Shown here: positions 2-8,193 of the stretch, piece after piece
Layout: each line of letters begins with the position of its first letter
Position numbering within the stretch: position 1 is the first letter of the stretch
Assembly (NCBI GenBank): GCA_020249465.1
Contig: JADCFP010000019.1
Location: forward strand, 1 to 38,733
DNA: 38,733 nucleotides
Reading direction: 5' to 3'
DNA from: Roseomonas sp.
GTDB lineage: Bacteria; Pseudomonadota; Alphaproteobacteria; Acetobacterales; Acetobacteraceae
Notes under the pieces: model-generated
What the model saw: only the letters and a program-made list of their open reading frames with translations
Told to the model about the DNA's origin: nothing
The model's database searches: none
Translations under genes and position numbers: made by a program

Positions 2-217
2 CCGAGCCTCCCGCCCGTGCGCATCTCCGCCATTGATGCCGGAAAGGTCCGCATCGGCGGCAACGCCCCGAGCCTCCCGCCCGTTCGCATCTCCGCCATT
101 GATGCCGGCAAGGTCCGCATCGGCGGCAACGCCCCGAGCCTGCCGCCTGTGCGTATCTCTGCCATTGATGCCGGCAAGGTCCGCATCGGCGGCAACGCCC
201 CGAGCCTCCCGCGCTGA
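2..217 (+). CDS. C-terminal part of a 22-residue tandem-repeat protein (5' end outside window)
   Basis: The frame is open from the first bases of the window to the TGA at 215-217, so this is the 3' end of a longer gene. A GTG at 17 could start a 66-aa protein, but the same repeat already runs upstream of it (five codons PSLPP), so that is unlikely to be the true start. The visible part is three copies of VRISAIDAGKVRIGGNAPSLPP; the last residue of the final copy is Arg. Each unit holds two half-units that begin with VRI, and the protein has no Cys, Trp or aromatic residue. Differences between copies are almost all synonymous (Val GTG/GTT, Arg CGC/CGT, Ser TCC/TCT, Gly GGA/GGC, Leu CTC/CTG), which is good evidence for translation and selection on the peptide. 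I do not recognise the family. It could be a repetitive surface or structural protein, or a multi-core peptide precursor. Confidence 0.7.
   Translation, partial: PSLPPVRISAIDAGKVRIGGNAPSLPPVRISAIDAGKVRIGGNAPSLPPVRISAIDAGKVRIGGNAPSLPR
17..214 (+). repeat. Three tandem 66-bp units encoding a 22-aa repeat
   Basis: The units lie at 17-82, 83-148 and 149-214, each exactly 66 bp with no spacer, and the tail of a preceding unit occupies 2-16. They are about 93-97% identical at DNA level and differ almost only at third codon positions. The array probably continues upstream of the window, so the copy number is unknown. The unit length is a multiple of three, so expansion or contraction by recombination would keep the frame. 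Confidence 0.95.
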
Positions 218-257: not shown

Positions 258-310
258 GTGGTTTGGGGAAATTCGGGGGAGAGTTTCGTCTCCCTTAACC
301 CCCTAACCAC
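258..310 (+). promoter_or_regulatory. Large nested inverted repeat between the repeat gene and the DUF6065-like gene
   Basis: The outer arm GTGGTT (258-263) plus GGGG (265-268) pairs with CCCC (300-303) plus AACCAC (305-310). The inner arm GGGAGA (277-282) pairs with TCTCCC (289-294) around a six-base loop. No T-tract follows, so it is not a classic terminator. It more likely stabilises the upstream mRNA end or lowers read-through into the gene that starts at 326. Confidence 0.6.
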
Positions 311-7076: not shown

Positions 7077-7409
7077 ATGATTGACACGAAACTCGGCACC
7101 GGGGCGGAAGCGACACCAGGCCAGCACATCACTGTGCATTACACGGGCTGGTTGTTCGATGGCGCAGCCCCCGAAAACAAGGGCCGCAAATTCGATTCTT
7201 CGCGCGACCGCGCCGAGCCCTTTTCCTTCCTGCTTGGCGCCGGGCATGTGATTGGCGGCTGGGATCAGGGTTTTGCGGGGATGAAGGTGGGCGGGCAGCG
7301 CACGCTGATCATCCCGCCGGAGCTTGGCTATGGCGCGCGCGGCGCAGGTGGCGTCATTCCACCCAATGCGACGCTGATTTTTGAGGTTGAACTATTGGGC
7401 GTCGGCTGA
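7077..7409 (+). CDS. FKBP-type peptidyl-prolyl cis-trans isomerase
   Basis: A 110-aa single-domain cytoplasmic FKBP that isomerises Xaa-Pro bonds and assists folding. Typical blocks are visible: HYTGWLFDG (near residues 22-30), [32 protein letters not shown], then [15 protein letters not shown] and [15 protein letters not shown]. These contain the aromatic and Asp residues of the active pocket. There is no signal peptide. An AACAGGAG site precedes the ATG. The gene follows a terminator, so it probably has its own promoter, and the TlyA gene starts 34 bases downstream. Confidence 0.95.
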
Positions 7410-7443
7410 AACGGCGCCCGCCGCGCTGCCGCATGAAGGCGCC

Positions 7444-8193
7444 ATGACCCGCCCGCCAAAACAGCGCGCCGATTTGCTGCTTGTCGCAACCGGCCTCGCG
7501 GAAAGCCGCGCCCGGGCGCAGGCGTTGATTCTGGCTGGCAAGGTGTTCAGCGATGGCAAGCGTGTCGAAAAAGCGGGCGATCTGATGGCTGATGGCGCGC
7601 CGCTTGAAGTGCGCGGTCAGGATCATCCTTGGGTCTCACGCGGGGGGCTCAAGCTTGCCCATGCGCTGGCGCATTTCGGGCTAAAGCCGGAAGGGCGGGT
7701 TTGCCTGGACCTGGGCGCCTCCACCGGGGGCTTTACCGATGTGCTGCTGCATCATGGTGCCGCGAAAATCTATGCGGTGGATGTCGGCCATGGTCAATTG
7801 GCCTGGAAGCTTAGGCAAGACCCGCGCGTGGTGGTGCTGGAAAAGACCAATGCCCGCTATTTGGACAACACCACCATCCCGGAACCCATTGGCGCCTTGG
7901 TTTGCGATGCTTCCTTCATCGGGCTGCGGACCATCCTGCCAGCCCCCTTGTCGCTCTGCGCGCCGTGTGCCTTTGCAGTGGCATTGATAAAACCGCAATT
8001 CGAAGCGGGGCCCGGCCAGGTCGGCAAGGGCGGCGTGGTGCGCGACCCTGCACTGCATCAAGCGATTTGCCGCATGATCGCCGATTGGTGGGCCGCCCTT
8101 CCCGGCTGGCAAGTGATTGGCATCACCGAAAGCCCGATCACAGGCCCTGAGGGGAATAAGGAATTCCTCATCGCCGCGCGACGGGAAGGCTAG
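7444..8193 (+). CDS. tlyA: TlyA-family 16S/23S rRNA 2'-O-methyltransferase
   Basis: A 249-aa SAM-dependent RNA methyltransferase. An N-terminal S4 RNA-binding domain (about 6-60) is followed by SRGGLKL (65-71), the SAM-binding CLDLGASTGGFTDVLL (87-102), KTNAR (134-138), CDASFI, KPQFEAG and PEGNKEFL. These match the TlyA (FtsJ-like) family that methylates ribose in rRNA; older names call it a haemolysin. The ATG at 7444 begins the conserved MTRPPKQRADLLL segment, and the open frame before it overlaps the FKBP gene. It is probably co-transcribed with the FKBP gene. In many alphaproteobacteria this gene neighbours dxs, but not here. Confidence 0.92.
   Translation: MTRPPKQRADLLLVATGLAESRARAQALILAGKVFSDGKRVEKAGDLMADGAPLEVRGQDHPWVSRGGLKLAHALAHFGLKPEGRVCLDLGASTGGFTDVLLHHGAAKIYAVDVGHGQLAWKLRQDPRVVVLEKTNARYLDNTTIPEPIGALVCDASFIGLRTILPAPLSLCAPCAFAVALIKPQFEAGPGQVGKGGVVRDPALHQAICRMIADWWAALPGWQVIGITESPITGPEGNKEFLIAARREG

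Follow-up and report, generated by a model that had tools for sequence, protein, structure and literature searches.

The microviridin precursor AMdnA, which is encoded together with the ATP-grasp ligase AMdnC, is a multi-core RiPP precursor (PMC5934393), and the carrier-peptide pathways of the pearlins and PEARLs provide a second point of comparison. Here, we compare with these systems a locus of Roseomonas sp. in which tandem 22-residue units are encoded upstream of a DUF6065 protein. Our search of the open-access literature (subscription papers being outside its scope) returned no paper on DUF6065 (PF19541) or on the core of the unit, and searches of the RiPP literature gave no description of this system; in the resources that we searched, no function is assigned to either the unit or DUF6065. 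Our best reading is a multi-core ribosomal peptide system with a short leader or none, the units of which would serve as substrate or ligand of DUF6065.

Organization of the Locus

The window (the whole stretch of DNA analyzed, 38,733 nucleotides), contig C74 in a genome of 4.07 Mb and 162 contigs, opens inside the repeat array owing to a break in the assembly. A further contig, C14, closes with the same 82 nt with which the window opens, and given this overlap, the array across both contigs comprises one degenerate unit and at least three further units. We take C14 and the window to be adjoining on the basis of this overlap and of the same gene order in intact congeners (L098, L101, L103, L104, L106, and L107), such that the EamA-related and BTAD genes would be divergent from the peptide and DUF6065 genes. 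The features of the locus are as follows:

C14, 4000-4956, divergent from the peptide gene: EamA-related protein, 318 aa, recognized by tblastn to two Pfam-named EamA proteins
C14, 4984-7062, divergent from the peptide gene: BTAD regulator, 692 aa
C14, 7260 or 7266 to 7448: 5' part of the repeat peptide gene, from the same genome as the window
Window, 2..217, + strand: 3' part of the repeat peptide gene; positions 2-214 encode PSLPPVRISAIDAGKVRIGGNA three times (three 22-aa units) and then a terminal PSLPR, with the stop TGA at 215-217
Window, 258..310, + strand: possible stem-loop between the peptide gene and DUF6065
Window, 326-1108, + strand: DUF6065 protein, 260 aa (PF19541, 58.4 bits, cut-off 26.6)
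Window, 1290-1514, + strand: open reading frame of 74 aa, no Pfam match
Window, 1593-2099, - strand: XRE-type regulator

The first-pass annotation had described three in-frame 66-nt units encoding one 22-mer with almost only synonymous differences. The units are as described (Tandem Repeats Finder: 3.2 copies, period 66, 94% matches), and the differences prove to be exclusively synonymous, with all six variable sites among the three window units being third positions and silent. The unit-to-unit comparison that the annotation had proposed gives two synonymous changes between units 1 and 2, five between units 1 and 3, and five between units 2 and 3, with no nonsynonymous change in any of the three pairs. 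As 55 of the 198 possible single changes are silent, the probability of six silent sites out of six is ∼0.0005, assuming equal and independent changes. The upstream stop or frameshift that had been put forward as a possible refutation is absent: the frame on C14 is open, with an ATG, and the gene starts as MNMSELHIQQLPSMKRVSLGGAAVADAGKTCIGGNAPSLPP... downstream of AGGAG, the second Met being the likelier start judging by the congeners. The supposed lack of Cys and aromatic residues holds for the three window units; the first, degenerate unit on C14 contains a Cys (GKTCIGG). Of the proposed VRI...VRI half-repeat, VRI does occur twice per unit and the halves are otherwise unlike.

The possible stem-loop at 258..310 has a z-score of 0.17, with 114 of 200 shuffles folding equally well, and across 13 sequences both sides change in 7 of 20 consensus pairs, with a covariation term of just -0.74. 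In 13 of 13 loci from close congeners, DUF6065 is succeeded by the 74-aa open reading frame and the XRE-type regulator, the conservation of which is not seen beyond these.

Linkage of the Peptide and DUF6065 in Relatives

Scanning 84,980 species genomes yielded 268 DUF6065 relatives, and we retained the best 80. Among these 80, the unit peptide is encoded upstream of DUF6065 in 65 of the 71 loci with at least 300 nt of upstream sequence, and a piece of it appears in six of the nine loci with less than 300 nt; reading the upstream sequence did not reveal it in the remaining six of the 71 (L110, L111, L147, L150, L167, and L174). A regular expression found the peptide at 84 of 100 subfamily loci (a partly redundant set). 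In each of three controls it matched once, namely among 24 main-family DUF6065 loci, 74 points lying 2.5 kb downstream, and 112 reverse strands. We rely on the 80-locus set because the 112 loci of the regular-expression search include duplicates of the same organisms. The match at L147 was read as chance, and this locus is thus counted among the six negatives; L114, L138, L149, L152, and L171 were missed by the expression and added by reading.

Within the genus (59 genomes, our own included), the N-terminal part of the peptide has matches in 21 genomes (E up to 0.1) and DUF6065 in 31 (E up to 0.001), with a strong peptide match (best E below 1e-19) in 14. In other genomes of the genus, a different unit stands upstream of DUF6065, either LRLGGLSPLFPP...VADAGTLRMGGLSPVFARG or VADKGTVRIGAGVRTPKAS, and there the search is weak or silent. 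Outside the genus, two Rhizobium plasmids, NZ_CP104041 and NZ_CP104036 (L176 and L246), each encode a peptide with three HIANKSP units, which precedes DUF6065 by 16 nt. Next comes an MFS gene, intact in one plasmid and split into two open frames in the other; the annotation of NZ_CP104041 gives the MFS region as two distinct hypothetical proteins. A search for the Rhizobium peptide in 299 genomes, run without a positive control, gave no match. The subfamily is common in Acetobacteraceae, being found in 84 of 249 sampled genomes and 41 of 102 genera, and rare in the class sample (5 of 385 genomes, including our own).

Conservation, Copy Number, and Selection on the Unit

Across the 71 loci, the core of the unit resembles DAGKVRLGG or, more broadly, DAGKVRxGGxAPxL, and the unit sequences otherwise vary widely. 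In the aligned 14-residue core, the most common residues are kept in 62 (D2), 56 (K5), 64 (V6), 63 (R7), 70 (G9), and 50 (P13) of the loci, and since no residue is strictly kept except one glycine, a modified residue cannot be named. Units without the core proline occur in L138, L149, L140, and L145 (DAGKVRMGAISQTLATA, DAGTVRLGAIARTLPTA), so the family does not depend on this proline. In 58 of the 67 readable ends, 10-18 residues separate the last core from the stop. The N-termini differ between genera, with Roseomonas peptides sharing QQLPSM and Reyranella peptides beginning with the core itself; inspected by eye, these N-termini show no apparent signal peptide or anchor. As in RiPPs, the precursor is small and gene-encoded and has a conserved core. 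The number of detected units per peptide ranges from 1 to about 18-19. A single unit is contained in peptides of just 30-31 residues in L163, L171, L172, and L173, the genes of which are preceded by a clear AGGAG or, in L172, by AAGGA.

The earlier proposal that the peptide sequence is under selection is supported in relatives, with pN lower than pS in 45 of 48 arrays having at least three detected units (pooled pS 0.335 vs pN 0.111); L148 has 17 copies with pS 0.225 and pN 0.000. The exceptions are L105, L112, and L114, the last with two identical windows. We note that mixed registers or nonunit matches in the values for L104, L105, L120, L121, and L131 raise pN. At L105, which comes from a MAG, the frame shifts partway along the array upstream of DUF6065, reflecting either an assembly error or decay.

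Unit distance follows DUF6065 distance across the 71 loci (Mantel r 0.62, reached in 0 of 2000 permutations; unit strings of L105, L120, L131, L163, L171, and L173 corrected by hand), which shows co-inheritance and not contact. Five assemblies carry two copies of the system, in which the paired DUF6065 proteins are 50-55% identical and each has its own unit type, and in a sixth pair, L134/L135, the DUF6065 proteins are 94% identical and the units alike.

The suggestion that the unit matches no known family stands at the curated cut-offs of both Pfam and NCBIfam. A relation to CsrA was considered and rejected, the scores being below the cut-offs in Pfam (24.1 bits vs 27) and for TIGR00202 (22.5 vs 70.1).

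The DUF6065 Partner Protein

The predicted structure of the DUF6065 protein has a dUTPase-like fold. Compared to dUTPases, which are trimeric beta-clip proteins, the model differs by extra C-terminal helices; sequence identity is 8-16%, and hhalign gives probabilities of 0.1 and 0.2%, such that this comparison shows neither a sequence-profile match nor the dUTPase motifs. The aligned stretch covers the motif II-IV region, and the motif residues differ. The dUTPase-like fold is not known as a peptide-modifying fold.

The main DUF6065 family (PF19541; Caulobacter, Sinorhizobium, and others) is related, as the window protein exceeds the Pfam cut-off and the main family and the subfamily align with a probability of 98.6% and ∼30% identity over the aligned part. 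It differs in that its 24 loci have no comparable upstream peptide, bar the one locus with a single regular-expression match. At one main-family locus, on the Sinorhizobium medicae plasmid pMl3 (L244), an autotransporter gene is followed directly by DUF6065. Searches elsewhere gave no PADLOC match for DUF6065, the BTAD protein, or the peptide, only weak matches to unknown families in PHROGs, no DUF6065 relatives in phage records, and nothing meaningful in a PDB sequence search.

Neighboring Genes

A BTAD gene lies near 37 of the 80 loci, placed upstream on the opposite strand in 19, upstream on the same strand in 2, and downstream on the opposite strand in 16; among the 38 loci flanked by 2.5 kb on either side, it is present in 20 and absent from 18. 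Our own genome has three BTAD hits in all, the best being at this locus. Four transporter queries detected transporters in 10 of the 80 loci: EamA in nine, either directly after DUF6065 (L126, L137, and L164) or behind the BTAD gene (six congeners), and an MFS protein after DUF6065 in L159. When the EamA protein of L164, which is from another class, was compared to our own genome, the best match was the C14 protein (36%, E 6.8e-41), and the one other match was at 24% (E 3.7e-9). Among the selected neighbors scanned with Pfam, we saw neither an enzyme of a known RiPP type nor a leader peptidase or an exporter dedicated to peptides, and a known leader was not seen either.

Several other genes recur at these loci. 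A gene for the metalloprotease TldD, which acts in microcin maturation, is located upstream at a distance of 1-3 kb, in the same orientation, near 11 of the 80 (e.g., L121, 4547-5998), which may simply reflect synteny. At 10 of the 80 (L113, L115, L117, L118, L120, L123, L124, L139, L148, and L151), DUF6065 is followed by a gene for a GDSL-like hydrolase. At two loci, the immediate neighbor of DUF6065 encodes an M20 peptidase, downstream in L121 and upstream in L111. We have set all three aside because they are clade-bound or rare.

Interpretation of the Unit and Its Partner

Taken together, the linkage with DUF6065, to which a regulator is often added and an exporter of small molecules sometimes, suggests a peptide-based pathway not described before. 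We give a probability of roughly 0.5 to the unit being a substrate or carrier peptide of DUF6065. The array would then be a small cytoplasmic peptide consisting of tandem copies of one functional unit, with a unit bearing a core like DAGKVRxGGxAPxL standing at the end of the protein. DUF6065, encoded alongside, would bind each unit and then either modify it or use it as a carrier, and the product, or a small molecule built on the unit, would exit through the EamA or MFS exporter, with the BTAD regulator controlling the pathway. Such a peptide would resemble the multi-core precursors of RiPPs, here with DUF6065 as the one partner enzyme and a leader that is minimal or absent. The genes, their linkage, the conservation of the unit and the selection on it, and the resemblance of DUF6065 in fold are observed, and binding, modification, cleavage, export, and any product are inferred from them. 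We favor this multi-core precursor because a single unit suffices, the copies are under selection, the peptide is tied to DUF6065, and a regulator and a metabolite-type exporter are present at some loci. A more specific version, a new class of ribosomal peptide pathway, is tentative, and we hold it to be rather less probable than its negation. In this version, DUF6065 alone would modify the peptide or load it as a carrier, acting on tandem, essentially leaderless cores and feeding an EamA or MFS exporter, and Acetobacteraceae, along with some other Alpha- and Betaproteobacteria, would have turned a dUTPase fold to peptide chemistry. If our reading is correct, it would add a new group of peptide products and a new role for a fold known for nucleotide chemistry.

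The principal competitor, which we judge possible though on balance improbable, is that the units are multivalent, unmodified ligands that gather or cap dUTPase-like trimers of DUF6065, for instance by contributing in trans an edge strand or an arm. The peptide would then sense or regulate metabolism, of nucleotides or otherwise. The predicted fold of DUF6065, the resemblance of the units to short beta strands in the low-confidence peptide model, the lack of a clear leader or known modifying enzyme, and a copy number spanning 1 to about 18-19 are all consistent with such a role; however, the exporters at some loci suggest an exported product, and the dUTPase motifs lack support from the profile comparison.

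The first-pass annotation had also allowed for a structural or adhesive protein. In such a case, we would expect a folded beta-solenoid or silk-like repeat, with DUF6065 as an accessory protein. Regular repeats of 17-25 aa argue for this, as do the strands in register in an AlphaFold2 model of low confidence (pTM 0.47) and the match of one long relative to the AIDA-I autotransporter, which is very weak and far below threshold (54.4 bits vs a cut-off of 1200). A protein of this kind is nevertheless hard to reconcile with peptides of one unit and arrays of just two, with a mean pLDDT of 50.5, or with N-termini that carry no visible export signal, and we regard it as distinctly unlikely; the alternative that the annotation had raised, a multi-core peptide precursor, fits better, as such genes accompany DUF6065 and some encode a single unit. 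Least probable by far, to the point that we give it hardly any weight, is a translated yet neutral repeat, in which unit similarity stems from recent duplication or conversion alone. Units are indeed more alike within an array than between species, as concerted evolution would give, but this leaves unexplained both the deficit of nonsynonymous change in nearly all arrays, including the 17 copies of L148, and the recurrence of the same core beside DUF6065 proteins that are only ∼50% identical.

Comparison with Known Systems

In sequence, the unit does not appear to resemble microviridin. The resemblance to the pearlins and PEARLs lies in an encoded peptide that may scaffold an exported small molecule, and the difference lies in the enzymes, as no PEARL or tRNA-dependent ligase was noticed in a Pfam scan of a few neighbors here. 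Compared to microviridin-type multi-core precursors, the partner is an ATP-grasp ligase there and DUF6065 here, and the present peptides have no clear leader; what the two systems share is a small precursor with several copies of the core in variable number, and a partner enzyme encoded alongside (PMC5934393).
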